A stretch of DNA of 64,000 nucleotides from Basidiobolus meristosporus CBS 931.73 (taxonomy: Eukaryota; Basidiobolomycota; Basidiobolomycetes; Basidiobolales; Basidiobolaceae). The stretch covers positions 43,096 to 107,095 of the forward strand of contig MCFE01000269.1 of assembly GCA_002104905.1 (NCBI GenBank). Direction: 5' to 3'. This document shows, one piece after another, positions 1 through 64,000 of the stretch (positions are counted from its first letter, which is position 1; every line of letters begins with the position of its first letter). The translations under genes were made by a program, and so were the position numbers. The notes under the pieces were generated by a model that searched no databases, was not told the DNA's origin, and saw nothing but the letters and a program-made list of their open reading frames with translations.

Positions 1-996
1 CGAATCACATGACATGCCACAGATAATCTAGGTCATTTTGGTGGAATATTTGTTTGTGCCTGAAGCCTTGGAGTGTCAAGAAAATTTGCATGCATTGCTA
101 GACCATCACTAACAAATAAATCATTTACCATATTATTGGTGGATAATCCATAAGAGCGTTATATCCATCTCAAGAACGTCTTGTGTACAGAACTTACCGT
201 AGCACAAACACCTGCTGAGAAAGCGAAGAATGCCCTTATCTTGTTTGACTATATTCAACCTCCAACTATTCTAACCGGCTGTACAAGAGTCCAATTCATT
301 GAGCAGCAACTAACCAAATACGCAGGCCAGAGTATCCGAACTGTATCTATAATCGAACCATCGCGCGATTGTTGATAAGTGGACTTCTAAGTTGCTCACA
401 TGATTCGTAAAATCATTACTCTAGAATAGGATAGAGTCAATCCATCACGACAGCCACTGGGAACCTTAAATTGGGGACATTTCCATAAATGAGCTAATCA
501 GAGTTCTTGATGCTGTTTGACTACGGCTGCCATATATGGGCATCAGTATAATTCTTCACATTACTAATTCACGGAAGAGAGGGAGAGGACATGAAAGCGG
601 CACACTCCAAGAGATTGCGTGTTTCCTTCAAGATGCATACTATCCTAGTGTAACGACGTCTTTCGCACCACAGAATATTACCCCAGGGGAAGCTTATTTC
701 ACGCACTCTGATGAATATGGCGTGATATGATGTTCGTATTTGGGAAATGACTTGAAATTGATAAATGTGCTTGCGAATTTTCGGGGGCTTTTATTGGTGA
801 ATGCGGCGGATATACATGGCAGGTGGAACTGATACGCTGTGATCTTGGCTCTGGTGGTCATACGTTTTTGGAAATTTCATTAGATTTAGTCCGTGATTTG
901 TTTAGTTGGTCCGAAGAAAATTTCCACCGACTCTATAAAACGCATTTCTCGCGCCAACGTAGATTCACACAACCTGTCCCATACACTCTCTCCCCC
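1..996. other. Left margin, no convincing gene
   Basis: Only short open frames are present (65 codons or fewer before 730). None shows a recognisable domain, signal peptide or plausible splice partner. The last 150 bases probably hold the promoter and 5' leader of the permease at 997: a TATA-like element (CTATAAAA) lies at about 932-939, some 60 bases before its ATG. Decayed gene remnants cannot be excluded. Confidence 0.4.
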
Positions 997-2494
997 ATGA
1001 CAGACAAAGCCTCTGCCAACGACTTCGAGCATCAATACAATATCGCCAAAAAGGGTGATGAGTTGGGAGAGGTGACCATCCAAGGCACAAGAACCGCCTC
1101 CAGCACCTCTGCATACTGGCATCTGCTTTGTATTTTGGCTGGTAGTGGATCAGTATCCTTTAGCATTTGAGCCAGTTGATTACTTGAAACCGATGTGTAT
1201 CTTGCTCTACTATCCTTAATTCCAATTCTATAGTTATCATTGCCATATGTCTTGGGAACCACTGGTTGGATCGGTGTCATAATCATCGTCCTCTGCACCC
1301 TCTTCGCCATCTATAACAACATCCTGCTCGTGAGATGCCTCTATGCTAACCCGTAAGTAGAGCAGTATCTGACCATCCATAGACGACTCGTGCTGATGTA
1401 TTGCTTAGTGAGAAGCGCATGAATACCTATACCGATATTGGACAAGCCTCCTTTGGCATTGTTGGCAAAGTGGCAGTATGGTTCTTCCACAACTCCATCG
1501 TCATCGGTGGCCCTATTGTATATATGATCTTGGCTGGAGGAAATATCCAACAGCTTGTGTCGCAGCTTGGGGTGACGCTCAAGAAGGAGTATTGGATTAT
1601 GATCTGTGCTGCAACTGTGTTCGTCCCATTCGTCACCTTCAAGAACATCCGCGAAGTTACCGTTCTCTCCTTTTTCGGAACCTTCACCACCGTCTTTGCC
1701 ATCATTGTCGTGGTCGTCGTCAGTTTCGTTGGCACTAACCACCCCGTACCTGAAACCGAGCCTACCCATACATTTGTTAGCTGGAGCCATGTCCCGCTTG
1801 CTCTCGGATCCATTGGGTTTTCTTTCGGTGGAAACGTCGTCTTTCCCCACGTTGAAGCTACCATGAAAAACCCCAAGGCCTGGAACAAAGTGATGTCTTT
1901 GTCGATCGGCTCGGTGTCTATCCTCTACCTCTTGATTGCTATCTGTGGCTACTATGTCTTCGGTTCCAGCGTCAAGGCACCAATCTTCGAGAGTCTTTCT
2001 ACCAAGGACCCAGCCACCATTGCAGCAATGATCTTGATCACCCTTCACGTGCTTCTGGCTTCCCCTATCTTCTTGTTCGGTTTCGTCAACGAGTTGGAAC
2101 ATAGCTTCAACATCAACCAAGAGCGCTTCTCCAAGATCACGTATTACTCTATCCGTACCGTGATCCGTACTGCCACGATTTTCTTCGTTGGGTTGATTGC
2201 GGTGGTTGTACCCTTCTTTGGTAACGTAATGTCTCTGATCGGGGCGCTTTCAGAGTGTATGACAGTTTTCGTAAGTGTAACTTCATTTCCATCAAATCCG
2301 AACCGATTTAGTAACTCGATCATCCTTAGGTTCTACCTGTTGTCTGCTATGTCAAACTCTTCGGATGGAGAAGATGCAATGTCGTACAACTGATCTGGTT
2401 TGCCATCACCATCGCCGTCGGTCTAGTAGGTTGTGTCTGGGGATCCATTGATGCTATCATTGCACTCAAGAACGATTTCCAAGGCAAAAATTAA
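997..2494 (+). CDS. Amino-acid/auxin permease family transporter (vacuolar AVT-like)
   Basis: Multi-pass secondary transporter of the Aa_trans/AAAP family, which in fungi usually exports or imports neutral amino acids across the vacuolar membrane. The ATG at 997 gives a hydrophilic N-terminus, then a first membrane helix with the typical GSG...LPYVLGTTGW segment. Four exons join in frame across introns 1153-1233, 1353-1408 and 2271-2329, all GT-AG. About ten hydrophobic segments follow. Typical family features include FFHNSIVIGGPIVYMI, the Gly-rich GSIGFSFGGNVVFPHVE helix and a loop with M-NP-W. The protein of about 430 residues has normal family length and appears intact. A long open frame on the opposite strand (1341-2120) is a shadow. 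Substrate and membrane location are inferred from the family only. Confidence 0.88.
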
Positions 2495-2852
2495 TGTACA
2501 TTAGTATGCACGAGTTTTCTTTTCAAGGACAATATTTAGAGTTTTTTTAGTTAAACGGACATTTTTTTTATTTGTTTAATTTTCCCATGGACAATCACGG
2601 ACAATCTTCACACTTTCTTCATCTCTAGTAACCTGTTTGATACCAAATAAATCCACCCTCCCGAATACCACTTAATTTCGGAACGGTACTCATTTCCACT
2701 GCACGTGATCTCAACTCTAGATTTCACTTCATGGCTGTAGTTACGCGCATATCATATAGATAACATGTCAGATTCTTTTTTTCTCGGCAGTTTTTTGATA
2801 TCTGAGTGATCCGTGGAATGTAGCTGTGTTTGAGACTTCAAGCGCCACCGAA
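2495..2852. other. Intergenic region between permease and DPH6
   Basis: Contains the permease 3' region and the DPH6 promoter. Short AT-rich tracts are seen at 2535-2580. No RNA gene or repeat was recognised. Confidence 0.4.
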
Positions 2853-5800
2853 ATGAAAGTAGTCGCCTTAGTGAGGTAGCTCTTTGGAAACAGTAGAAGC
2901 AATGTCGCCTCGAAAATAACCCCGGTTTTGTTTCAAATAAACGTTCAAGCGGTGGAAAGGACAGTTGCTTCAATATGATGCAGTGCGTTGCCAACGGTCA
3001 CGAAATCGTGGCGTTGGCAAACCTAAGACCTCCACCAGAATCTGGAAAAGGTACTCGATTGGTTTTTTAAGATAGAACATCTACGTACATGTATATCCGT
3101 ACTTATTCCCTCTAAGATGAGCTCGATAGTTTCATGTTTCAGACCGTAGGTCATGATATTATAGATTTCTATTCAGAGTGTATGCAACTCCCACTGTATC
3201 GACACTCCATTACCGGTTCCTCGGTTCTACAGACAATGGACTACACCGTGACTTTAAATGATGAAACCGAGGATCTCCTAGCTTTGTTGAGTGAAGTCAA
3301 GGTGGATATATGGGTCTGGTTTTTTTTCTGAAGGCTTGGTTGCTAACATCAAGCGAGTTACTTAGTCCAAACATCCTGAAGTTGAAGGGGTTTCTGTCGG
3401 TGCCATTCTGTCGAACTATCAAAGGATTCGTGTGGAGCACGTGTAAATCCCTTTTAGCTTGCATGTACTTGTCGTATTAGTTTTTCAACTTTTATTCAGT
3501 TGCTCTAGACTTGGCCTAACCTCCCTGGCTTATTTATGGAGACAAGATCAGCATGCTCTTCTTGAAGCTATGATTAGGGCAAATGTTAATGCTGTCTTGA
3601 TCAAAGTGGCGGCAATCGGTAAGCTTGTTCGGAGCTCTCACCATTGGTACCACAGCTCAGTAATTTCAAAATTTCAAGGGTTGAAGCCTACCCATCTCGG
3701 AAAATCCATCGGCCAACTCTACGATTATTTGAATAAGATGGTATGAGCGCTCTGTACAAACCACCATGGCTCACGCAAGCATTCAACAAGTGTACGTGAC
3801 ATAGAACAACTTGTATGACCTCCATGTCTGTGGCGAGGGAGGTGAATACGAAACATTTACCTTGGATTGTCCATTGTTCAAAAAACGAATTGTGCTGTAA
3901 GCTAGCTCTCTTTTCAAGGACATTAGAGAACACCTCTAAATATTCACCGATATAGGGATGAAGTCGAAACGATTATTCATTCTGATGATGCATTTGCTAC
4001 TGTTGCGTATCTTCGAGTCAAGAAAGCACATGTGGAAGACAAGGACGAGGAGGAAATATATACTCCAACGGAAAAAATTGTTTCCAGTATTGTTCATGGG
4101 GAAGACGAAGATTTGTTGATGAGTCTCCAATCACTGGTATGGAGTTTCCCTCCACTCTAGTGTTTCTCTTTAAACTCACATAGCCCGGGTAGAGTGCACC
4201 CTCGTACAAAGACTCGCCTAAAGTGCGCTTTGAGAGCGGCTCCGAATCAGCGGACAACCATATTTCAAGTAAGCGCTACCCGTATTTACGGTTACATTTT
4301 CAATTTTTAAACAGCGCAATACACATAACGACAGGCTCCGAAAACCCACCTTTCTATGCTTTCGGTAATTCAAATGCATATCGTCAATCAATTCAATCGA
4401 ACCCTCCAAGTACAATCGAAGAAGAGACGGAATTGTGTATGAAGGATATTCAAGGTACAATTCCGCATGTATATAGATGTCAAAAGACAGCCCTAATCAT
4501 CCCAATAGAGCAACTTGTGTCGAGAAAGTTAAGCTTGGGCGATATCGCGACTGTGAATGTTTATGTTGATGACATGGCAAGTTTTGCGCAAGTGAATCAA
4601 GCATACAAGAGATACTTTGGAATCAATCCTCCATCGAGGTATGGTGTTTAAACTAGAGACGAGACTTGCATTACCATAACTAATCAAACCATTGCACATT
4701 CACCATAGAGCCTGCGTTCAATTGAATCTCCCTTCTCCTCATCGTGTTCAAATCGATTGCATTGCTGCAAAAAGAATGTGCACGGCTGGGGAGGCTCAGG
4801 CAGCTCAAGTTGAAAGAGATACTCTGCACGTCCAAGGGCTTTCTTATTGGGCCCCGGCCAATATTGGCCCATATTCTCAGGCAGTGGTTGTGCGTATCAC
4901 CCTTTTCATCAAGCCTGCTCGAGTCACCAAACTAACTCGAACCTTTATTCACCTGCAATAGGTCCAGAACCAGATATATGTTGCAGGGCAGATCGGTCTA
5001 ATTCCCTCGTCCTTGTCACTGCCTGGCGGATCAGATGACAGCGAAAGTTTCTTCACTGAAGCAGTTCTTTCCTTGAGACACATCAGTCAAATCGCCGAGA
5101 TATTCGCATGTAACATAGAGAAACGAGCGGCCCTTTGTATCTGCTATGTATCCGAAAAGCGTTGGCTGCCTTTGTGTCAGCAGATCTGGGAGTCTAGGTT
5201 AAAGGTAAAGACATACAGCCGGTGGTCACACCTGCTCCAGAGGATTTATTCACATTCGGTATTTGTCGATAGTTGAAGGAAGACTGTGTGTTGCCGCCTT
5301 TCTGTGCTGTTGTTGTGCCCGCATTACCACGTAGCGCAAAGATAGAATGGCAAACCATACTGTTCAACGGAGTTCCCAAGATTTGTGACCCAGATTCTGA
5401 CTCCGATTCCGAGTCGGGCACCCATTATGTGGAACACAATGCCTGCCCAATTCTTTCGGAAAGTATGTCACCAGCTATGCCCAGTTCAAGAACCAACACT
5501 AAATGACCATTGCCACAGGGGAAATTACTAACGAATACAAGGAGACTGGTTTAATGTGTAGGGTCAAGGCAAGGCAGTGGACCTTTATGAATTTGTGTAC
5601 CGCTGTGGCCACTCTTCATCTGGCTTCAGGTAACGAGAGCATTTGTGATTTCCCCTGATCACCTTCTGATATGGCTCCAACACGATAGAAGCCGAGGAGA
5701 TCGCACTATCAAGCCCCGACCGACTGATTCAGCAACTTATGCAAGAAATCTATGTTCCTATTGATCGATTTGAGAAGATCGGCTGGAAGGCGGTGCTTCA

Positions 5801-14468: not shown

Positions 14469-16172
14469 ATGGCCAAACCAGCTCGTTTACTCCAAAGTGA
14501 GGCCCCTGCTGAACCAGATTCTCCGGAAGAAAATGCCCCGCGCTCCTTCGGAAAAGGAAGATTATACACCTCCCACTTTCTGAAGTATGCATTTTGTATT
14601 TAGTCTTCCACGAAGAGCCATATTCTGATGGGATCTTGCCTTGCTTTAGTGTATGGGGAGACAGACTATACGAATTCGCTAGTTTTCTGTTCATTATGGA
14701 GGTCTTTCAAGACACCTTGCTTCCTTCCTCTTTGTTCGGCTTTCTTATGACTTTCTCGGCAATTGTGGCCGGCGGCGCTATTGGAAACTGGGTAGACAGG
14801 AGCGACCGACTAAAAGGTATGTATCCCCTAAAGACTGGTATCCTTCCAACTTTCAGTAACGCAAGCCTTAAGTTGTAAGAACGTCCATCATCTTACAGAA
14901 GTTTTCCATTGCCCTGAGCTCGATCTGCTTTTATCTGCTATTTACCACTTTCGGCCCGAGATCCTCCGACAACCACACTATATACTTTGCCTATGCCCTC
15001 TTTGGGGTGATATTGGTTCTAGGCATGGTGCTGAAGGTGATGCTAATGGCCACAAATATCGCCGTCGAGAAAGACTGGGTAGTGATCATCGCGAACAAAG
15101 ACGAGGAGTTGTTAACTCGTAAGTTTACTAAATGGAGTGTGATCCAAAAGAAAAGCGACCTTTCTAATAACCTTTCGTAGAACTGAACACCTCAATGCGG
15201 AGAATCGATCTGATTTGTAAGCTCGTCGCGCCTTTGTTGGTTGCCTGTTTAACCGCCGTTGGCACCACGATATTCGCCGTGATATTTATCGGTGTTTGGA
15301 ATGTCATTTCCATGGTGCTCGAATATGTTCTGATCTACAAAGTATACCAGTTGGTACCGGAGTTATCCGTGCCCAAAGGAGCCAGAGTGGAGAGCACAGA
15401 GGACGAGGCTCTGGTAGACTCCGATGTCTCTAAGCCAACCTATGGCACAGTTCCGGCCAAGCCCGTCGTGGCCGCTACCGTCGAGCAAACCAGCTACATT
15501 CGGCAACAAATCGACGATTGGGTGTTTTTCGCCAAACATCCGGTCTTTTTGGCCAGCTTGTCGGTCGCCATGTTGTATTTAACCGTTCTGTCATTCAACG
15601 GTATCATGGTTTCCTTCTTGAAGTGGCAAGGGTACTCGGATTCGTTGATTGCTGCCATGAGAGCCATGTCCGCATTTACCGGTGTACTGGCCACATATCT
15701 GATGCCGATTCTGGCCAGACACATCGGTATCGTCCGGACGGGGACCTGGTCGATATGGTCACAGGTGATTACCTTGATCCCAGTTGTGGCGGCATTCCTT
15801 GGCCCCCCTACACTTCTCGCCAAGGTGATGCTCTTCGGAGGCATGGCTCTATCTAGGATAGGGCTCTGGTCGTTTGATTTGTCCCAAGTCCATATCGTCC
15901 AGAGCCAAGTTGCAAACGAAGACGCTGGTCGGATCAACGGGCTCCAACATAGCCTCTGCAACGTGTTTGACCTTGCCCAATTTGGCCTGACCATCATCTT
16001 TTACAATCCCGAGGATTTCATCATACCTGTGACGACCTCGTTTGTCATGGTCTTGCTTGCAGCATGCACCTTCTCGTATTATACCCACCGTCAGAGAGGG
16101 CATCTGTTTCATTTTGAGAAGCTTCCTTCATTCGGTATTACACCGTGTGTTCATTCCAACCATCTGGTATAA
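14469..16172 (+). CDS. Ferroportin-like (SLC40A1 family) iron/metal exporter
   Basis: Predicted multi-pass exporter of ferrous iron or related metals at the plasma or an organelle membrane. Four exons: start MAKPARLLQSEAPAEP, then after the first intron VWGDRLYEFASFLFIMEVFQ, matching the ferroportin first helix (WGDRMW-FA). The conserved loop GNWVDRSDRLK follows, then AIEK-like NIAVEKDWVVIIA and STMRRIDLICKLVAPL, which carries the RRID segment typical of the family. The largest exon is 15181-16172, holding a central hydrophilic loop (EDEALVDSDVSKPTYG) and six further helices. RIGLWSFDLSQVHIVQ and GRINGLQHSLCN are diagnostic. Length is about 510 residues, normal for the family. The final dozen residues after HFEKLPSFG may be read from intron sequence. 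It meets the next gene tail to tail 67 bases away. Confidence 0.9.
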
Positions 16173-30172: not shown

Positions 30173-31909
30173 TTAGACCACCACGAGCCAGGGATTACCA
30201 GTCAAGCCCAATATGCCACATGAAAATGCAGCAATCCCAAGGCCTGTCCAAGCAACATACGGGCCAAACTCACGGGTGTTGGGATTTTCAGTCGTACTAA
30301 GTACTGTTCCACCGATGACTGTAGCAAAGAGAACGTGAAGCAGGATACTTGGATAGCCGCCCATTTCCATAAGTCCCAGGAGTATTAATGCGATCGGCAT
30401 GGTCGAAGTGAAATGGTTTAGGTTGGTAACAGAGCGGCGTAGCTCCAGTAACGGTTGTTCTGGTCTATAAGACTCATAGCTTGATTTTTCACTTCTGTCA
30501 ATAACGGTGCTTTTGGATAACTCTGCCGAGCCATCACCAGAGAATGTGATGGTTCTCTTTCGGTTGAGCCAGGTTCGACGAGAGAGTACAATGAAGTGAA
30601 TGGCGATAATAGAGGCATAGAAAGTAGACAGCTGTGGATAACTTGGTACAACCCCGGCCGTGGGACCCTCAATCGCTTCGACAGGTGTGCTATGAGCTCC
30701 ATTCCCGCCTTGATTTGCTGGGTATGTGACGGTTGGTATGTTGTTTTTCAATTTATCAATCGATGTAGCGGCTTGATTCTTCAAATCCTCGGCCTTCTCG
30801 GTGACACTTACGACATTCTCAGAGCCTTTACGCCATTTGTCTTTGACATAATCATTAGCTTCATTCCAAGCAGATTGACCTTGATCTACAAAATCGTCAA
30901 CATATTGCTCCCCTTGATTTTTGTATTCCTCCGCAGTGTCCTTGACGTTGCCTGCTGTATCCTTCAGCTTATGTTTGGCTTCATCATAATATTCCTTGAA
31001 AGTATTTCGGACGTTCTCACCCTTCTTTGCTGCTTCATCCTTAAGCTCATCGGCGGATAGTTTGACATAGTTATTAACGTAATTGTAATAATTTTCTCCT
31101 TCGTTCTTCGCCCTGTCGTAATAATTCTGGGCCTTTCGGGATGCTTCTTGGGAGTCATCCGCCACTCTTGAACTCACAGACTCAGCATACTGGCCTGCTG
31201 CACCGGTGGCTCCATCCTTCCATTTCAGGGCATCATGAATGAACTGAGAAGCGCCCTGAGCAGCCTTGTATTTAGCATTCTCCCAAGCGTCACCAGCTTT
31301 TTCCGTTGCCTGTGAACCTAGTGACGTTGCACTAGAGTATATATCACCAGCTTTGTATTTTCCATCCTCGTATTGATCCTTGAGTCGATCGTAGTGATCA
31401 TTTACGTAGTTCTGGCCTTCTGCTACTTTATCATTGGCTTGTCTGTAACCATAGTAGGCGCCTTCTTTGGCTTCGTTAGCAACATGACTTGCTTCATTCT
31501 TTGCTTTTTTGTACATGTATTCGGCATCGTTTTTCCAGTTTTCGAATTTGTGATTCCCCTCATTTTTAATGGAATCGTATTGATAATTAGCCTCATTTTT
31601 CAAGTAATCGTATCCATGTCCAGCCCTGTCCTTCAGTTCATCGTACTGGTTCTTCGCACCATTGGCAGCCTCTTCCCATCCTGACTGGACAGCTTGAGCA
31701 GCATGCTTAGCTTTGTCTGAAGGGGTATCATGGTGAAACATCGAGTGTACTCTATCGGTAATATCGGCAAATCCGTTGTTAGGCATATCGTGGTAATGGA
31801 ATTCGAGAAACTGAGGGTTGTATCGATACTTGCCAAGGTTAAATACTTCGGCAGATCCGAGTCGTAATCCATGTAGCCAAAGTTGAGAAGCCATTAGGTG
31901 ATGAATCAT
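30173..31909 (-). CDS. LEA-like repeat protein fused to a C-terminal MAPEG-type membrane domain
   Basis: One uninterrupted frame of 578 codons. Residues of about 60-400 are highly hydrophilic 11-mer-like repeats rich in Ala, Lys, Glu, Asp and Tyr (for example KNEASHVANEAKEGAYYGYR and DSIKNEGNHKFENWKNDAEY), the pattern of group-3 LEA or apolipoprotein-like amphipathic helices. Residues of about 430-578 form four hydrophobic segments: LSTFYASIIAIHFIVLSRR, then the MAPEG-like ELRRSVTNLNHFTSTMPIAL, LLHVLFATVIGGTVL and YVAWTGLGIAAFSCGILGL. Family members with this fold include glutathione-dependent membrane enzymes, but activity here is unproven. The start is uncertain: 31909 is the first ATG, and MPNNGFADITDRV at 31786 is an alternative. 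The fusion could serve membrane protection during drying or cold; that is inference. Confidence 0.75.
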   Translation of the reverse strand: MIHHLMASQLWLHGLRLGSAEVFNLGKYRYNPQFLEFHYHDMPNNGFADITDRVHSMFHHDTPSDKAKHAAQAVQSGWEEAANGAKNQYDELKDRAGHGYDYLKNEANYQYDSIKNEGNHKFENWKNDAEYMYKKAKNEASHVANEAKEGAYYGYRQANDKVAEGQNYVNDHYDRLKDQYEDGKYKAGDIYSSATSLGSQATEKAGDAWENAKYKAAQGASQFIHDALKWKDGATGAAGQYAESVSSRVADDSQEASRKAQNYYDRAKNEGENYYNYVNNYVKLSADELKDEAAKKGENVRNTFKEYYDEAKHKLKDTAGNVKDTAEEYKNQGEQYVDDFVDQGQSAWNEANDYVKDKWRKGSENVVSVTEKAEDLKNQAATSIDKLKNNIPTVTYPANQGGNGAHSTPVEAIEGPTAGVVPSYPQLSTFYASIIAIHFIVLSRRTWLNRKRTITFSGDGSAELSKSTVIDRSEKSSYESYRPEQPLLELRRSVTNLNHFTSTMPIALILLGLMEMGGYPSILLHVLFATVIGGTVLSTTENPNTREFGPYVAWTGLGIAAFSCGILGLTGNPWLVVV

Positions 31910-55274: not shown

Positions 55275-55787
55275 TTAGCGTGTTGGTGAGGCTGAACATC
55301 CTTTTTCTTCGTGCTTAAGCAAGCTATCCCGGCGGGCAAACGGCTTGTCACATGCTGAGCAACGATAGAGTGTAGTGGTTTGGTGTACAGTAGCCAAATG
55401 CCTTCTTAAATCGTGCTTTCGACCAAAGGCCTTTTTGCATTCGAGGCACTGAAAAGGGCGAGCTAATTCAGGATAATGTGTTCGAGTGTGGACGTTCAGG
55501 TTGTACTTTCTAGCAAAGCTTTTAAGGCAACCCGAAAACGTGCAGGAGTAGATCTTTTCTTTTGCAGCAACTAATCGGTCACTCTTCTCGATTGCGCCAC
55601 ATGGGGAATATGAAAGTTGTGTAGGGGTAGGAATGCAACCGCTTTCAGAAGTTTGACTTCCCTCGTTGCTAGATTCATGAGAGCTATCTGTTTCAAAATC
55701 TTTTGGAATCGGGAAACTTAAGACAGTGTCCAGGAAGCTATGTCTGCTTCCAAGCGCTGAGGGATTATGGGGATTCATCAGTTCCAT
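55275..55787 (-). CDS. C2H2 zinc-finger transcription factor, three fingers
   Basis: A protein of 170 residues from MELMNPHNPSALGSRHSFLD; the frame is open upstream to an alternative start at 55982. A Ser-rich N-terminal region (SSHESSNEGSQTSESGC) precedes three adjacent fingers: YSCTFSGCLKSFARKYNLNV then HTRTH, FQCLECKKAFGRKHDLRRHL then ATVH, and YRCSACDKPFARRDSLLKHE then EKGC. The first two are C2H2; the last ends in C, a C2HC form. RKHDLRRH and RRDSLLKH resemble the Crz1/Msn-like fungal group. Nuclear, DNA-binding; targets unknown. Confidence 0.85.
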   Translation of the reverse strand: MELMNPHNPSALGSRHSFLDTVLSFPIPKDFETDSSHESSNEGSQTSESGCIPTPTQLSYSPCGAIEKSDRLVAAKEKIYSCTFSGCLKSFARKYNLNVHTRTHYPELARPFQCLECKKAFGRKHDLRRHLATVHQTTTLYRCSACDKPFARRDSLLKHEEKGCSASPTR

Positions 55788-57375
55788 GAGGGAAAAATAA
55801 AAAGACTTGTAAAAATTGAAGTGTAATCTGGTGAACACGATTAGATGATTTTCCAAAATCAAGTCCCAAAAGTCACGATTTATATCAGAAGAGAAAACCG
55901 AACATCCGAGGCTTTCTCCTCGATATAGGAAGGTCATGCCTGACGCAGGCCATGCCAACCCGCCACTGGGTAATTGCGGCACTCAATAATCCAGCTAACT
56001 GAGAGGTTGTTTCGATCAATTCGGGTGAATTGCGGCAGAAACACACGGTTGTGGAATTTGTAATCGCCGCACCATTGGGGCTGCAGAGACACAAAACTAG
56101 TGAAAGCAAATAGAATATACTGGAATTTTCTATCCCCACCCCAAGGTCATAAACCTGATTCTTGGCATCGAAATGAATGCATAGCACATTAAGATATACA
56201 GTACAATATTTCAGAATAGGGAAATATGACGTAATTTGTTCCGGTTTGCACCTAATACACGGATAGCCGGAATCATTATTCCTTAATCTTGAACCTCTTG
56301 TTTGAGTTTTGCTGCTGGCCCATGTCATTTTATAATGCCAAGGTTCGTTTACTGAGACTATATATATGTATATTATAGTCAGTGTTAGTACCTGAAGAGC
56401 CCCACACCTCGGGAAACTACACTCGGGGATATTTGTGGCTAAGAACTAACATATTCCGGAACCTAAAATCAATTATACTCTAGTATTGTTCTGATTAATT
56501 GTCAATTCCACTTGCTGGAGAACTGAAAGTGTACTTTGGTGCAATCTTTGACTTGCAGATTCAGAGGGGCGAATGGATATTGGTGATGAAAAATTCGCGG
56601 AATTTGGGTATGTAAACAACAGTGCCATTATATATACTGTTATATATAGGATTTATGCAAGAATAATCATTGCTTTTACTGGGTAAGTGTCTCTGTTTAT
56701 TACATGCTAAACATTGATTCTGTTTGAAGTATATTAAGATTAACAGTAATGATACATTTGGAAACATCGGACCTGTAGCAGCTAATAATACCGAGAATAT
56801 TATTACTGAAGATCTTTTGGAGGTTGCTATTCAAGAAGAGGATCAAGAGAAAGATGAAATCGACCTTGCTGCTGCGGATGTCTCAACAACTAGGGAAGTA
56901 TACAATGACCCCCCGTACAAGTGGGTCTGTCAATGGTTTCACCTCCTTGAAAGCTTGGTTAAACATGAGAGCCGTACCATTATTGCTGACTCTTAGTTTG
57001 GTTCCCCAAATACAACAATGATGTTGACTGAGCCTGGTCTACATTCGATTGTGTAAGTGACCAAACGCTGCTGATTGCCATATGGTATGTCTACCACTGA
57101 TATGGCTGTTAGTATTAGCAACTTGTATGATACTTACTTCACTATGAAAAAGACAACAAGGAATGAGTGAATCTTTGTCTGTCTGCCATGATCACAAAAG
57201 CGGTATATCAAAAAAACAAACAATAATCAATAATAGTTCAGAGGCAGTACAATTGTTTTTAACATTTCAAATAAGGTTGTTGAAAACCATGCACATCACT
57301 CATCAACAAAGTGTTAAAGTTTGCCAAAAATTACCACAGTCAAAGTAACTTGAGACAAGATCATTGTAACTGTTC
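55788..57375. other. Gene-poor subtelomeric stretch
   Basis: No coding sequence can be supported. AT-rich simple tracts occur at about 56358-56378 and 56628-56650 (TATATAT runs). Short overlapping frames at 56724-57021 lack domain or splice evidence. The region may consist of decayed repeats. Confidence 0.4.
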
Positions 57376-57524: not shown

Positions 57525-57924
57525 ACTGTTGTCAGAGTTTTGGAGATATTGGAAGTGATTGGGAGAGCTAGTAGACTATGTGGTTTTTGCCTAATGATTT
57601 ATCAAATGTAAAAGTGGTATTAAAACTTTTACATGTTCTTGGTAAAAAAACCTGCATATTATGTTTGATAAAGCCCCAATAGCATGAGAATAAAGTCTGG
57701 GGTTGCTTGCACAAATTTGAGAAATATCATATTCTGGGTACCTGCTCTTATGGTGCAAATATCCAAAGTAAATCCAAACAAGGAGTTTGGTCAGAATTCT
57801 CAAAGACATGTAGGTAAAGCTCTAAGTGACTAAGCTAGGTGAGTACTTTGATGGAGCTACAAATTCTTACAATACAACCACTCAACTGAGTACTCCAATT
57901 AATTAGTTCCAATTGCAATATGAG

Positions 57925-58840: not shown

Positions 58841-58852
58841 TTAGGGGGGGGG
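58841..58852 (+). repeat. Interstitial telomere-like junction 1
   Basis: TTAGGGGGGGGG directly precedes the LINE 3' end of copy A (GAGACAGTC on the plus strand). One degenerate unit with nine G. Confidence 0.8.
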
Positions 58853-59181
58853 AGACAGTCATCAACAGGTGAAATATTTATTTCAGTTGAAACAAAGAAG
58901 CCAGCGCTACTGTTGTAGCTTTGATACAAGAGTGTGTAGCTGAGGGGAATTTGCAGGTAGGTTAACAAGAAGTGATGATAGTTCTTCAGTGCTTAAGACA
59001 CTGTTTAGTGGGAAGGGGGGTAGCAAGAGGGGTAAGAATGATTTGTGAACAACATTAATGAGGGGAATATGATAAGGATTGATATTCATCACAAAGGGTG
59101 TATGCTGCTTCAGATATTGCTGCCAAAGGTCTGTGAAGTACTTCAGGTAGGCCAGCTTAGGTTTTTCTGACTGCAGAATAG
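58852..59181 (-). mobile_element. Non-LTR retrotransposon copy A, 3' end only
   Basis: About 330 bases homologous to the 3' ends of copies B and C. It encodes the last 85 or so residues of the same ORF (ILQSEKPKLAYLKYFTDLWQ through LHTLVSKLQQ, stop at 58907) plus the 57-base 3' UTR. Homology stops after CTGACTGCAGAATA on the plus strand at about 59181, a severe 5' truncation. It is more diverged than B and C are from each other, so probably older. Confidence 0.9.
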
Positions 59182-59347
59182 ACTTGTTCAATTGTACTAC
59201 GCCAGGGCGCACAATGCAATGCACAGTTGTAAAGAACAATTGGGCACAATATAATAGCTACCAGTAGGCAGGATTGTTCTTGGACAATTTTGCACTATGT
59301 GGGACAATCTTGCACACTATGGCACAATCTGACATGATGAGGTTGGC
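59182..59347. other. Spacer with degenerate ACAATCTTGCAC repeats
   Basis: Not related to the retrotransposon. Several variants of GGCACAAT / GGACAATCTTGCACTATG recur between 59240 and 59335, suggesting a decayed short tandem repeat, perhaps subtelomeric satellite. Confidence 0.5.
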
Positions 59348-59362
59348 TTAGGGGTTAGGGGG
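59348..59362 (+). repeat. Interstitial telomere-like junction 2
   Basis: TTAGGGGTTAGGGGG immediately before the 3' end of copy B; two telomere-type units, one with an extra G, then a five-G run. Confidence 0.85.
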
Positions 59363-61923
59363 AGACAGTCACCAACAGGTGAAATCTTTATTTCAGTTGA
59401 AACAAAGACGCCAGCACTACTGTCGTAGCTTTGATACAAGAGTGTGTAGCTGAGGGGAATTTGTAGGTAAGTTAATAAGAAGTGATGATAGTTCTTCAGT
59501 GCTCAAGACACTGTTCAGTGGGAAGGGGGGTAGCAAGAGAGGTAAGAATGACTTGTGAACAACATTAATGAGGGGAATGTGATAAGGATTGATATTCATC
59601 ATAAAGGGAGTGTGCTGCTGCAGATATTGCTGCCAAAGGTTTGTCAAGTACTTCAGGTAGGCCAGCTTGGGTATTTCTGACTGCAGAATAAATTCAGCAA
59701 ACTTCTTGACTTCAGGATCTCCAAGTATAGTTCTCCAGCAGGAGCCAGGTGTAGTGTGGTGTGTTCTCTTCCAGGCCTTAATCAGTGGGTTGTTGCAGTT
59801 GTGAAGTCTGAGGTATAATCTGGTTCTAAGGTAGAGAAGTCTGATCTTATAGGGCATAAACCCAAAAGCACCAAGAATAGCATGTCTGTAGGGGCATTCA
59901 GGCAAATGAGGCACCAAGGAGGTAATGCACCATACTGCAAACTTGTCAAGCTTAGTGCAGTCTCTAGAAGTAAGAGAGAGAAGTGGTAAGCCAAATTCCA
60001 GGACAGGGAAGACAAACTGCTTGAGTAGAAGGAGGCAGCTGGGAGCTGAAGTTGTAGGAGGAGTAACAGCCAGTAGCTTGTGGAGTGCCTGTCTTGCTAG
60101 AATAATTCTCTTCTTCAGGTGTGCTCCAGAGTCTAGTCCAGTAGAAAGGAAAGGAAAGCCAAGATATGTAGCAGAAACCTGAGCAGGTAGAGTGGAGTTC
60201 TCCAAGTTGATGGGAGAGCCCAAAGGTACTGTCTTTGCAATGGAAAGCTGGAGATTATTCTTCTGCAGATACTGGTGGATGGTCTGGGAGTCTTGTTGCA
60301 CATTGGAGGAGGATATTCTGATGTCATCAGCAAAGAGAGTAACCAGGCAGTCAGCTGAGAGTCTTGGGAAATCATTCAGGAAGATGGCAAACAGTATAGG
60401 ACCAAGCACAGAGCCTTGAACCACTCCATTAGGAACTGAGAACACAGCTGATTGCTCACTTGGGTGCAGAATTCTTGCTTGTGGATCCAGAAACAGAGAT
60501 CTGACAAGGAGGGTGAGAGAGGTACTGGAGAAGCATTGCAACTTGGACCAAAGCAGATTCCTGTCAACTGAATCAAAGGCCTTAGTAATATCAAACAGAA
60601 CAGAGGGATACTTGCACTGGAGAGAGTGATCTTGGCTAAGTATGACTGCATATTCCAAGGAGAGGCCAGGAACAAAGCCAAACTGTGCAGGATGAAACTT
60701 GAGGGAGTCAGAGTAGAGCTCCTGAGCAAGCAGAAGCACAAACACCTTTCTGCAGGTGGGCAGCAGAGATATTGGCCTGTAGGAGCTAGGATCCAGGTGC
60801 TTTCCTTTACCCTTGTACAGTGGCAGAACATTTGCAAAGGACCATTCCTCAGGAGTAGAAAGCTGGGCTGAGCATTGCTGAAACAGTGGAAGCAGAAGTG
60901 CAGACATGGCCTTGGTACTAGTCTTCAGAAGCTCATAGGAGATTGTGTCCACACCTGGAGCAGTAGAGTTGGGAAGCCTCTTGAGCACATTATGGATTCT
61001 CCTTTGATCAAGTGCAAGTGGGATGGGCAGAGTCTTGAAGTCAGGATGAAAGCCAGGGGTTGAGTACTGCTTTGTAGAGAAGAAGATGTTAGCCAGCTGT
61101 TCTGTTGAAGGTAACTTCCTGGAAGAGGGCCTCATTGCCCTGTAGAGTCTTGATACTGTTCTTGTTATAGAGTTGGAAGATTGCAGAGGCAAAGAACTCA
61201 TAATATGATCCCAGAGCTGAGTATGCAGAGTGTGGTGAATTGCCTTGGAGTAGTGTATTGCTGTCAGGAGGAGTTTCTCTGTTTTTGGGTTAGGGAAACT
61301 CAAGTAGCTTTGTTGCAGGGCTGAAACAATGGATTCCCATTTTCTTGAGGTAACAGCAGTAGTCATGCATGGCAGTGAGAGGGAGGCAGACACCAGAATC
61401 AGATGCTTCACAAAGAGCCAGGCATAGTTGAGATCATCTGGCAGAGAAAGTAGCAAACTGGCAAGCTTCAAGTAGTTCCCAAAGTCTTTCTTCTGATTCT
61501 TGGTAGCTTTGTGGGTGAGCACAGTAAGTTTTGGCAGCTTCTTCTTCACAACTGGTTGCATAGACAGGGACCAGGCTGGGTGGTCAGAGGCTCTCAAGGA
61601 TCCTAGCTCAGCTCCAGAGAATTGCTTAACTTCATTCACAAAGTAGAGGGCAGCAGCAGAAGGGCAGATCCAGTCAACACATCTTTTCTCAGATTGAGCA
61701 CCTAGTGCTAGCAGGTGGCTTTCTCTCAGGAAGTTCAGTAGGAATGTAGACCTTGGCTTCATTCTTGCAGTCAGAGTAGTCTTGTTCTCAGGATGGGGAA
61801 TGTTGAGATCTCCAAGCAAGATAACAGGTGTTGATATAGATTGTTAGTATTGCTGAAACTTCCTGCATATAACTTGCACTTCCTGAAGGGCAAGACTTGG
61901 AGGCAGATAGCAGAGCACCAGAC
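59361..61923 (-). mobile_element. Non-LTR retrotransposon copy B, 5'-truncated, longest copy
   Basis: About 2.56 kb on the minus strand with its 3' end toward the centromere. It ends 3' in a short UTR (stop at 59417; 57 bases) and then GACTGTCTC plus a run of C joined to telomere-type repeats. There is no poly(A) tail. At the 5' side the element stops at about 61923 inside the endonuclease domain, directly against TTAGGGTTAGGG. Protein features are given in the coding entry. Confidence 0.92.
59417..61819 (-). CDS. LINE ORF2-type protein: C-terminal part of APE endonuclease plus reverse transcriptase (partial)
   Basis: An 800-codon open frame. Residues 1-85 hold the C-terminal part of an APE-type endonuclease: LGDLNIPH (GDLN motif), VDWICPSAA and ASDHPAWS (SDH motif). 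The RT domain contains LYKGKGKHLDPSSYRPISLL, LFDITKAFDSVDRNLLWSKL (first catalytic Asp), PNGVVQGSVLGPILFAIFLN and LVTLFADDIRISSS (FADD active site). Thumb and a C-terminal domain follow, ending LVSKLRQ. No zinc knuckle or RNase H domain was recognised. The YRPISLL and QGSVLGP wording resembles the Jockey/CR1/L2 side of LINEs; clade is inference. Upstream, the frame continues a short way to a stop at about 61845 and the remainder is missing. Confidence 0.9.
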   Translation of the reverse strand: MLGDLNIPHPENKTTLTARMKPRSTFLLNFLRESHLLALGAQSEKRCVDWICPSAAALYFVNEVKQFSGAELGSLRASDHPAWSLSMQPVVKKKLPKLTVLTHKATKNQKKDFGNYLKLASLLLSLPDDLNYAWLFVKHLILVSASLSLPCMTTAVTSRKWESIVSALQQSYLSFPNPKTEKLLLTAIHYSKAIHHTLHTQLWDHIMSSLPLQSSNSITRTVSRLYRAMRPSSRKLPSTEQLANIFFSTKQYSTPGFHPDFKTLPIPLALDQRRIHNVLKRLPNSTAPGVDTISYELLKTSTKAMSALLLPLFQQCSAQLSTPEEWSFANVLPLYKGKGKHLDPSSYRPISLLPTCRKVFVLLLAQELYSDSLKFHPAQFGFVPGLSLEYAVILSQDHSLQCKYPSVLFDITKAFDSVDRNLLWSKLQCFSSTSLTLLVRSLFLDPQARILHPSEQSAVFSVPNGVVQGSVLGPILFAIFLNDFPRLSADCLVTLFADDIRISSSNVQQDSQTIHQYLQKNNLQLSIAKTVPLGSPINLENSTLPAQVSATYLGFPFLSTGLDSGAHLKKRIILARQALHKLLAVTPPTTSAPSCLLLLKQFVFPVLEFGLPLLSLTSRDCTKLDKFAVWCITSLVPHLPECPYRHAILGAFGFMPYKIRLLYLRTRLYLRLHNCNNPLIKAWKRTHHTTPGSCWRTILGDPEVKKFAEFILQSEIPKLAYLKYLTNLWQQYLQQHTPFMMNINPYHIPLINVVHKSFLPLLLPPFPLNSVLSTEELSSLLINLPTNSPQLHTLVSKLRQ

Positions 61924-61938
61924 TTAGGGTTAGGGGGG
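61924..61938 (+). repeat. Interstitial telomere-like junction 3
   Basis: TTAGGGTTAGGGGGG lies exactly between the truncated 5' end of copy B and the 3' end of copy C: two telomere units ending in six G. Confidence 0.88.
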
Positions 61939-63768
61939 AGACAGTCACCAACAGGTGAAATCTTTATTTCAGTTGAAACAAAGAAGCCAGCGCTACTGTT
62001 GTAGCTTTGATACAAGAGTGTGTAGCTGAGGGGAATTTGTAGGTAAGTTAATAAGAAGTGATGATAGTTCTTCAGTGCTCAAGACACTGTTCAGTGGGAA
62101 GGGGGGTAGCAAGAGAGGTAAGAATGACTTGTGAACAACATTAATGAGGGGAATGTGATAAGGATTGATATTCATCATAAAGGGAGTGTGCTGCTGCAGA
62201 TATTGCTGCCAAAGGTCTGTCAAGTACTTCAGGTAGGCCAGCTTGGGTTTTTCTGACTGCAGAATATAGTGAGCAAACTTCTTGACTTCAGGATCTCCAA
62301 GTATAGTTCTCCAGCAGGAGCCAGGTGTTGTGTGGTGTGTTCTCTTCCAGGCCTTAATCAGTGGGTTGTTGCAGTGGTGAAGTCTGAGATATAATCTGGT
62401 TCTAAGGTAGAGAAGTCTGATCTTATAGGGCATAAACCCAAAAGCACCAAGAATAGCATGTCTGTAGGGGCATTCAGGCAAATGAGGCACCAAGGAGGTA
62501 ATGCACCATACTGCAAACTTGTCAAGCTTAGTGCAGTCTCTAGAAGTAAGAGAGAGAAGTGGTAAGCCAAATTCCAGTACAGGGAAGACAAACTGCTTGA
62601 GTAGAAGAAGGCAGCTGGGAGCTGAAGTTGTAGGAGGAGTAACAGCCAGTAGCTTGTGGAGTGCCTGTCTTGCCAGGATAATTCTCTTCTTCAGGTGTGC
62701 TCCAGAGTCTAGTCCAGTAGGAAGGAAAGGAAAGCCAAGATATGTAGCAGAAACCTGAGCAGGTAGAGTGGAGTTCTCTAAGGTGATGGGAGAGCCCAAA
62801 GGTACTGTCTTTGCAATGGAAAGCTGGAGATTATTCTTCTGCAGATACTGGTGGATGGTCTGGGAGTCTTGTTGCACATTGGAGGAGGATATTCTGATGT
62901 CATCAGCAAAGAGAGTAACCAGGCAGTCAGCTGAGAGTCTTGGGAAATCATTCAGGAAGATGGCAAACAGTATAGGACCAAGCACAGAGCCTTGAACCAC
63001 TCCATTAGGAACTGAGAACACAGCTGATTGCTCACTTGGGTGCAGAATTCTTGCTTGTGGATCCAGAAACAGGGACCTGACAAGGAGGGTGAGAGAGGTA
63101 CTGGAGAAGCATTGCAACTTGGACCAAAGCAGATTTCTGTCAACTGAATCAAAGGCCTTAGTAATATCAAACAGAACTGAGGGATACTTGCACTGGAGAG
63201 AGTGATCTTGGCTAAGTATGACTGCATATTCCAAGGAGAGGCCAGGAACAAAGCCAAACTGTGCAGGATGAAACTTGAGGGAGTCAGAGTAGAGCTCCTG
63301 AGCAAGCAGAAGCTCAAACACCTTTCTGCAGGTGGGCAGCAGAGATATTGGCCTGTAGGAGCTAGGATCCAGGTGCTTTCCTTTACCCTTGTACAGTGGC
63401 AGAACATTTGCAAAGGACCATTCCTCAGGAGTAGAAAGCTGGGCTGAGCATTGCTGAAACAGTGGAAGCAGAAGTGCAGACATGGCCTTAGAACTAGTCT
63501 TCAGAAGCTCATAGGAGATTGTGTCCACACCTGGAGCAGTAGAGTTGGGAAGCCTCTTGAGCACATTATGGATTCTCCTTTGATCAAGTGCAAGTGGGAT
63601 GGGCAGAGTCTTGAAGTCAGGATGAAAGCCAGGAGTTGAGTACTGCTTTGTAGAGAAGAAGATGTTAGCCAGCTGTTCTGTTGAAGGTAACTTCCTGGAA
63701 GAGGGCCTCATTGCCCTGTAGAGTCTTGATACTGTTCTTGTTATAGAGTTGGAAGATTGCAGAGGCAA
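61938..63768 (-). mobile_element. Non-LTR retrotransposon copy C, 5'-truncated, capped by telomere
   Basis: About 1.83 kb, same orientation as B and nearly identical to it. The 3' side has the same UTR and the same junction with telomere repeats. The 5' side breaks at 63768 within RT-upstream coding sequence (GAGGCAA, matching 61193 in copy B) and passes at once into TTAGGG repeats. Confidence 0.93.
61993..63768 (-). CDS. LINE reverse transcriptase, partial (copy C)
   Basis: 591 open codons corresponding to residues of about 210-800 of copy B. It retains SSYRPISLLPTCRKVFELLL, FDITKAFDSVDRN, VVQGSVLGPILF and the FADD catalytic box, and ends LVSKLQQ. By eye about a dozen residues differ from B (for example VFELL for VFVLL and HYILQSEKP for EFILQSEIP), with no stop. 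The endonuclease is lost and the first codons (MPLQSSN) are not a natural start. It is therefore an open but dead fragment, suggesting recent insertion. Confidence 0.9.
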   Translation of the reverse strand: MPLQSSNSITRTVSRLYRAMRPSSRKLPSTEQLANIFFSTKQYSTPGFHPDFKTLPIPLALDQRRIHNVLKRLPNSTAPGVDTISYELLKTSSKAMSALLLPLFQQCSAQLSTPEEWSFANVLPLYKGKGKHLDPSSYRPISLLPTCRKVFELLLAQELYSDSLKFHPAQFGFVPGLSLEYAVILSQDHSLQCKYPSVLFDITKAFDSVDRNLLWSKLQCFSSTSLTLLVRSLFLDPQARILHPSEQSAVFSVPNGVVQGSVLGPILFAIFLNDFPRLSADCLVTLFADDIRISSSNVQQDSQTIHQYLQKNNLQLSIAKTVPLGSPITLENSTLPAQVSATYLGFPFLPTGLDSGAHLKKRIILARQALHKLLAVTPPTTSAPSCLLLLKQFVFPVLEFGLPLLSLTSRDCTKLDKFAVWCITSLVPHLPECPYRHAILGAFGFMPYKIRLLYLRTRLYLRLHHCNNPLIKAWKRTHHTTPGSCWRTILGDPEVKKFAHYILQSEKPKLAYLKYLTDLWQQYLQQHTPFMMNINPYHIPLINVVHKSFLPLLLPPFPLNSVLSTEELSSLLINLPTNSPQLHTLVSKLQQ

Positions 63769-63770
63769 GG

Positions 63771-64000
63771 AGGGTTAGGGTTAGGGTTAGGGTTAGGGTT
63801 AGGGTTAGGGTTAGGGTTAGGGTTAGGGTTAGGGTTAGGGTTAGGGTTAGGGTTAGGGTTAGGGTTAGGGTTAGGGTTAGGGTTAGGGTTAGGGTTAGGG
63901 TTAGGGTTAGGGTTAGGGTTAGGGTTAGGGTTAGGGTTAGGGTTAGGGTTAGGGTTAGGGTTAGGGTTAGGGTTAGGGTTAGGGTTAGGGTTAGGGTAGG
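63771..64000 (+). repeat. Telomere, (TTAGGG)n
   Basis: About 38 head-to-tail TTAGGG units with one irregular unit (TAGG) at the very edge. The G-rich strand runs 5' to 3' toward the window end, as at a chromosome terminus. The array follows GGCAAGGAGGG, the broken 5' end of LINE copy C. Confidence 0.97.

Follow-up and report, generated by a model that had tools for sequence, protein, structure and literature searches.

The window, that is, the whole 64,000-nucleotide stretch of DNA from Basidiobolus meristosporus CBS 931.73 analyzed here, makes up the terminal 64 kb of contig C501 (107,095 bases), and it ends in an array of pieces of one long interspersed nuclear element (LINE), here named LINE1, that runs into the telomere. 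We consider it probable that this array is a record of repeated LINE addition to broken or eroded chromosome ends, which were re-capped by telomerase. Addition at such ends is supported by the run of G residues that follows TA at nearly all junctions, by the shortness of the telomeric tracts inside the arrays, by the finding that none of 66 counted pieces resumes beyond another telomeric element, and by a dispersed repeat in the window that is cut exactly at a telomeric joint. The species is assigned to Basidiobolomycota by NCBI, and its genome assembly measures 89.0 Mb in 1311 contigs.

The boundaries of the LINE1 pieces were set by blastn against the full-length copy from contig C713. This placed three pieces (A, B and C) in the array, all on the minus strand and all with their 3' ends pointing to the interior of the contig. 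TTAGGG-type letters precede each of the three 3' ends, the junction sequences being ATTAGGGGGGGGG for A, CTTAGGGGTTAGGGGG for B and TTAGGGTTAGGGGGG for C, each followed directly by AGACAG. A sequence-only reading of this DNA had described three head-to-tail copies of one LINE followed by a true telomere, with every 3' end fused to TTAGGG-type sequence, and both statements were borne out by the blastn boundaries, the three junctions and a perfect terminal TTAGGG tract of 227 nt. The final base of the window is also the final base of contig C501 (107095). Copy A proved to be a LINE1 piece as described, but the LINE 5' end that was implied at its outer edge is not there, because a dispersed repeat interrupts the copy at 59181. 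Three other copies of this repeat (L108-L110) share its start point and continue, with pairwise similarity over 1.08-1.67 kb, whereas the window copy ends at 59346 and gives way to CTTAGGGGTTAGGGGG and copy B. We rejected an earlier suspicion that the DNA separating A from B is a further terminal element, since it equals the cut start of the dispersed repeat. Copy B retains an ORF2 (ORF, open reading frame) that is open over 808 aa from stop to stop, covering the reverse transcriptase (RT) domain and the end of a nuclease-like region, and the ORF2 of copy C is open over 593 aa, likewise from stop to stop. Read from the window, the order of events appears to have been the arrival of LINE A, insertion of the repeat, loss of the end within the repeat, a telomeric joint, LINE B, a second joint, LINE C and finally the telomere.

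Table 1. Features of the terminal array, in window coordinates
Feature	Position	Strand	Remarks
Interior junction of copy A, TTAGGGGGGGGG	58841..58852	+	joins copy A to interior DNA
LINE1 copy A	58853..59180	-	element positions 4232-4559, 95% identical; interrupted by dispersed repeat
Dispersed repeat, left end	59181..59346	+	enters copy A after AATAG; cut where telomeric junction starts
Short telomeric junction CTTAGGGGTTAGGGGG	59347..59362	+	between cut repeat and copy B
LINE1 copy B	59363..61924	-	element positions 1998-4559, 99%
Short telomeric junction TTAGGGTTAGGGGGG	61924..61938	+	between copies B and C
LINE1 copy C	61939..63771	-	element positions 2727-4559, 99%; capped directly by telomere
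Terminal telomere (TTAGGG)n	63771..63998	+	227 nt, 37.8 copies, 100% matches; contig end

Location and junctions of LINE1 copies

The exact 3' end of LINE1 was found 653 times in the genome, and location was determined for the first 100 of these ends as listed (contigs C1-C291, 60 contigs). All 100 lie at most 18.3 kb from the contig end that is faced by their 5' side. Sixty of them are in contigs under 100 kb, which in this set do not exceed 20 kb, so that nearness to an end carries little weight there, and 10 of these 60 are closer to the other end. In contigs of at least 100 kb, all 40 copies are within 18.3 kb of the faced end and 34 of the 40 are within 10 kb of it (5% expected). Similarly, among the 30 best blastn matches that were fetched (40 were scored out of 824 candidates), 28 are at most 10.7 kb from the end that they face. 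Telomeric 18-mers occur 8002 times on the plus strand of the contigs and 103 times on the minus strand, and most telomeres thus stand at the right contig end, a bias that perhaps stems from the assembler's orientation of contigs.

A TTAGGG motif is present at most 9 nt from the 3' end in 84 of the first 100 listed ends, and because the letter-reversed version of the pattern gave no match in the genome, this association is beyond chance. Genome-wide, the same TTAGGG pattern was matched at 593 places, some of which are double-counted. We then compared 97 junctions, which do not form a random sample, as they were taken from the 30 fetched blastn loci and from 60 short regions picked from the listed places. 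These showed 94 distinct 60-nt contexts, which means that the junctions are mostly separate events. Of the 94 distinct junctions, 85 consist of TA and a run of at least three G (TTA precedes the run in 73 and TA in 12), and a run of six G is the modal form (46/94). The interior context is LINE1 in 23 cases, a short interspersed nuclear element (SINE)-like element, described below, in 19, another element reference in 16 and none of these in 36. The telomere-like tract before the G-run has a median length of 6 nt and a maximum of 41 nt, as compared to 101-235 nt at 12 termini, and in many copies the link to non-telomeric DNA is formed by one or two repeats only.

The order of pieces within arrays follows the same pattern. 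Counting LINE1 and SINE pieces of at least 60 bp and at least 92% identity whose interior boundary was in hand, in 30 stretches, we obtained 66 pieces. Of these, 56 have an intact 3' end at their start, and the other 10 represent additional 5' units in tandem; not one of the 66 is a remnant that resumes beyond another telomeric element. A positive control for split elements was provided by contig C62, where a repeat of about 350 bp lies in LINE1 with LINE1 on both of its sides. This repeat (L142 278-627) reads TGTTGTAA...TTACAACA with CATAG on both flanks, has a 77% relative on the other strand of the window at 57527-57875, and looks like a solo long terminal repeat. Four pieces of at least 100 bp were excluded from the count for identity below 92%, one of them a SINE in L025 that has its 3' end; the other three are considered below.

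Starting from the telomeres gave a corresponding picture. Tracts of at least five TTAGGG with a non-G base in front were found at 111 places, and every fifth of the 100 that were listed was read (n = 20). Nineteen of these tracts are terminal (at most 261 bases from the contig end), the remaining one, C337:9643, lying 0.8 kb inside, and 15 of the 20 sit directly on an element: LINE1 in 9 cases, the SINE in 2 (one with only 26 bp), and LINE3 or the C1190 element with 101-bp repeats in 4. The LINE1 truncation points at the sampled telomeres scatter from 119 to 4246. Five tracts are on no element reference, and one of these is on a tRNA-Lys(CTT) sequence (L119 164-236; C249:12614-12686) that runs at its 5' end directly into the telomere tract and that may represent either a healed break or a second SINE.

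LINE1 and its companion elements

We read five copies that are full-length or nearly so (C824, C713, C516, C370 and C1190). LINE1 measures 4,559 bp with one 5' unit of about 99 bp (4,561 in C370), and the number of extra 5' units ranges from zero to seven (seven in C370, which has eight in total; two and a fragment in C516; one in C427). Tandem 5' units, of about 99 bp in LINE1 and 101 bp in another element, adjoin the telomere (L043 1288-1983; L121, L133, L135). The 5' untranslated region holds TTAGGGTTAGGG on its telomere-ward strand. The coding part consists of ORF1, one stop codon and, in the same frame, ORF2, which encodes an apurinic/apyrimidinic endonuclease (APE)-like nuclease and the RT. 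ORF1 has 502 aa from its first Met, contains cysteine pairs (CPNC..CKC), and gave Pfam matches to coiled-coil and zinc-ribbon families that are all below cut-off. ORF2 has 922 aa, of which residue 142 is the earliest position at which a Met could stand. The ORF1 stop of C824 is TGA followed by CTA (L013 around 4338-4350), a context that favours stop-codon read-through, and read-through from ORF1 into ORF2 is possible.

The RT of ORF2 matches RVT_1 with an E-value of 2.6e-25, and the best match among solved structures is human L1 ORF2p, the ORF2 protein (5.3e-13, versus 0.096 for 8gh6). The N-terminal matches to Exo_endo_phos are weak (18.2 against a cut-off of 27.4, and 16 against 24.5), although the relative P0006 reaches 27.5 against 27.4. 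LINE1 retains the GDLN and SDH motifs of the nuclease, whereas the column of the catalytic Glu holds Asp in LINE1 and likewise in P0002 and P0004, no further family member covering it; all 40 other sequences with a residue there have Glu (4 more are gapped). The pattern of a restriction enzyme-like (REL) nuclease, C..C..H..C..RHD/N, was absent from the ORF2 of L021. Both ORFs are open in three of the five copies (C824, C713 and C516), and the ratios of silent to replacing codon differences are 16:9, 6:4 and 18:11 among the three open ORF2s and 11:11 and 6:4 against window copies B and C, respectively. The open frames and the ratios among the three open ORF2s speak for recent activity of LINE1. 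Protein relatives include an ORF1 relative, P0123, in B. ranarum.

Sequence comparison suggests that LINE1 belongs to a guild of terminal elements, together with at least two further LINE-like families and the SINE-like element. The latter is 521 bp long and has TTAGGG before its 3' end at 414 pattern places, some double-counted. Its RNA polymerase III boxes match the consensus at 7/9 positions for the A box and 10/10 for the B box, a score that was reached by 3 of 20,000 shuffles, while neither Rfam nor ARAGORN gave a match to a tRNA head. The last 31 bp of this element are 91-97% like the ends of LINE2 and LINE3. In all five element types (LINE1, SINE, LINE2, LINE3 and element 4) a 3' hairpin of 5-6 bp can be folded, with differing loops, and AAATAAAG precedes it; the stem is nearly invariant, which leaves nothing to count as covariation. 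By direct reading of the letters, and not by a separate search, LINE2 as present in L016 and L021 was matched to the initial part of P0005, and parts of P0005 1-178 match C946, C536 and C591 at 91-98%.

Elsewhere in the window, Pfam matches identified ordinary host genes for an amino-acid transporter (1401-2393), a ferroportin (15195-16172), a cytochrome P450 (48340-49383) and a C2H2 zinc finger protein (55275-55982). A 578-aa ORF on the minus strand (30173-31909) gave a YtxH-like match of 40 (cut-off 37.5) and an apolipoprotein-like match under its cut-off.

Possible routes to terminal arrays

The 3' end of LINE1 carries a small hairpin and a C-run and is joined at the G-run to the G-rich telomere strand, and we infer that priming took place at the chromosome terminus. 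A chromosome end would break or erode to a few repeats, whereupon the C-run at the 3' end of the element RNA, plus any CCCUAA read-through, would pair with the GGG of the chromosome 3' end. ORF2p would recognize the 3' hairpin and copy the RNA outward from the chromosome end, usually incompletely, the envisaged primer being a GGGTTAGGG 3' end that is extended on the protein's own RNA, and telomerase would then add TTAGGG. Through the shared 3' hairpin, the same route may be open to the other LINE families and to the SINE-like element. On contig C880, two pieces scored above the Pfam cut-off for the TERT RNA-binding domain (PF12009), one of them with an internal TAG. Since the genome thus has a telomerase domain, the elements are no substitute for telomerase. 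The comparison with HeT-A and TART that had been drawn from the sequence thus holds for the layout, but not for a replacement of telomerase, and it is an analogy only. The idea of terminal attachment itself gained support when many copies were tabulated by position, orientation and 3' joint, and we infer terminal transposition from this.

Several observations weigh against addition at eroded or broken ends. Although nearly all copies examined are near ends, the strict claim that the element is confined to chromosome ends is ruled out by two internal copies, in C558 (96 kb) and on the minus strand of C726 (57 kb); both keep a TTAGGG-type 3' joint. Contig C291 had been considered a telomere-to-telomere contig with an element near each end, which was rejected as the contig start is not telomeric: beyond its minus copy, the first 300 bp are not telomere sequence. 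Nine of the 94 distinct junctions lack TA with three G; in four of these, TTAGGG or TAGGG stands a few bases deeper, which is not the case in the other five (L025, L030, L051, L086 and L099). Among the excluded pieces, a SINE in L026 is missing the final 9 nt at its 3' end, and two LINE pieces (L024 and L027) match inside the element at 67-72% and probably belong to another family. We found no empty-site allele for the window, whose interior flank matched only its own place and dispersed-repeat copies that are about 80% identical, and no array-free allele for C125, where the flank is single copy (one match). It should also be noted that the short inner tracts could be survivors, with longer interstitial tracts breaking, as has been argued for MoTeR (PMC7367193; here and below, statements on cited papers refer to the parts available to us). 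Likewise, with GDLN and SDH kept, cutting of telomeric DNA by the nuclease is possible, and nuclease action close to the telomere base would give a similar picture.

A rival view is that ORF2p nicks DNA near the base of the telomeric array and starts target-primed reverse transcription there, leaving telomere repeats on both sides, as TRAS and SART are described to do in the silkworm. Such nuclease-directed insertion into telomeric repeats would fit the fixed phase of the junctions, the telomeric sequence that flanks many copies on both sides and the weakly detected APE-like region with its conserved motifs. We nevertheless regard it as unlikely, since the inner tracts are far shorter than the terminal ones, one or two repeats are all that links many copies to non-telomeric DNA, and the catalytic Glu is replaced by Asp in every family member that covers the column. 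Spread of the arrays chiefly through recombination or break-induced replication between ends, with rare transposition, has been argued for part of the MoTeR arrays (PMC7367193) and would agree with the 99-100% likeness of the best 40 of the 824 blastn candidates. It is quite improbable in view of the 94 distinct contexts among 97 junctions, of which the full-length SINE end is the only one shared between contigs, and of the scatter of truncation points. That repeats were misjoined to telomeric reads during assembly might be suspected from the number of contigs, many of them 10-20 kb long with such arrays at the end, and from the strand bias of the telomeric 18-mers. An artefact of this kind is very hard to reconcile with one grammar that is obeyed by 94 distinct joints, with intact reading frames in three copies and with the tested joint at C125, which sits on single-copy DNA, and we give it almost no weight.

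Beyond addition at eroded or broken ends as such, it is conceivable, though we hold it only tentatively, that this telomerase-positive fungus has a second, RNA-templated form of end healing. In that case, a guild of LINEs and a SINE with a common 3' tail would prime on GGG 3' ends, and broken ends would routinely be capped by LINE or SINE cDNA and then by TTAGGG. Little or no nuclease would be needed, the catalytic Glu having become Asp in the family.

Relation to other telomeric elements

Telomeric LINE arrays with outward 5' ends are already known for MoTeR, and arrays or copies at chromosome ends for FoTeR and Cnl1. These fungal telomere-bound LINEs have been placed in one group, with REL nucleases in MoTeR1 and FoTeR (PMC7367193, PMC12857005, PMC12810828). 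LINE1 shares with this group the chromosome-end location with the 5' end outward, two internal copies aside, but it does not have the C-terminal REL nuclease. MoTeR1/2 of Magnaporthe oryzae resemble it in being telomeric with the 5' end outermost, in forming arrays with short interstitial TTAGGG and truncated copies, and in the existence of a second element that shares 5' and 3' sequence (PMC7367193). However, MoTeR1 has TTCGGG(TTTGGG)n at its 5' end, and its nuclease is putatively of the REL type (PMC7367193), whereas LINE1 has an APE-like nuclease and two ORFs, and the REL pattern was unmatched. FoTeR of Fusarium oxysporum is likewise found at chromosome ends, with its 3' side followed by mostly 3-7 TAACCC, and has upstream tandem repeats; it differs in its REL nuclease and zinc fingers, and its authors group it with MoTeR1, Cnl1, SLACS and CRE (PMC12857005). 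Full-length copies of Cnl1 of Cryptococcus are arrayed at chromosome ends with telomeric repeats on the outer flank, but this element is closest to MoTeR and also inserts in a reporter gene (PMC12810828).

Outside the fungi, HeT-A, TART and TAHRE of Drosophila form terminal tandem arrays and are assumed to insert at the terminal 3' OH of the chromosome, in an organism without telomerase (PMC4700185); Basidiobolus, in contrast, has a TERT domain and long perfect TTAGGG tracts. TRAS and SART of the silkworm have two ORFs, a nuclease and RT in ORF2, and an association with telomeric repeats (PMC4700185), a likeness to be read with the APE Pfam scores of LINE1 being below cut-off. Only full-length TRAS and SART elements are reported at telomeres (PMC4700185), while truncated LINE1 copies are common. 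The silkworm elements also use long telomere arrays as their site, as opposed to Basidiobolus, where the inner tract in front of the G-run does not exceed 41 nt.

In open-licence papers we found no description of these Basidiobolus elements, and the available parts of PMC11258239 and PMC10234402, which mention both Basidiobolus and telomeres, and of an Entomophthora genome preprint (PMC10515909) do not describe them. What appears to be new is the element type (two ORFs, a weakly detected APE-like nuclease with the Glu-to-Asp change and no REL motif), the phylum, and the guild with a SINE and a shared 3' hairpin. If this is true, the occurrence of an APE-like type in another phylum, together with a SINE and sister families, would suggest that telomere-bound life arose more than once. 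The hundreds of natural junctions in this genome would moreover provide a resource on how the RT of a LINE picks a chromosome end when telomerase is present.

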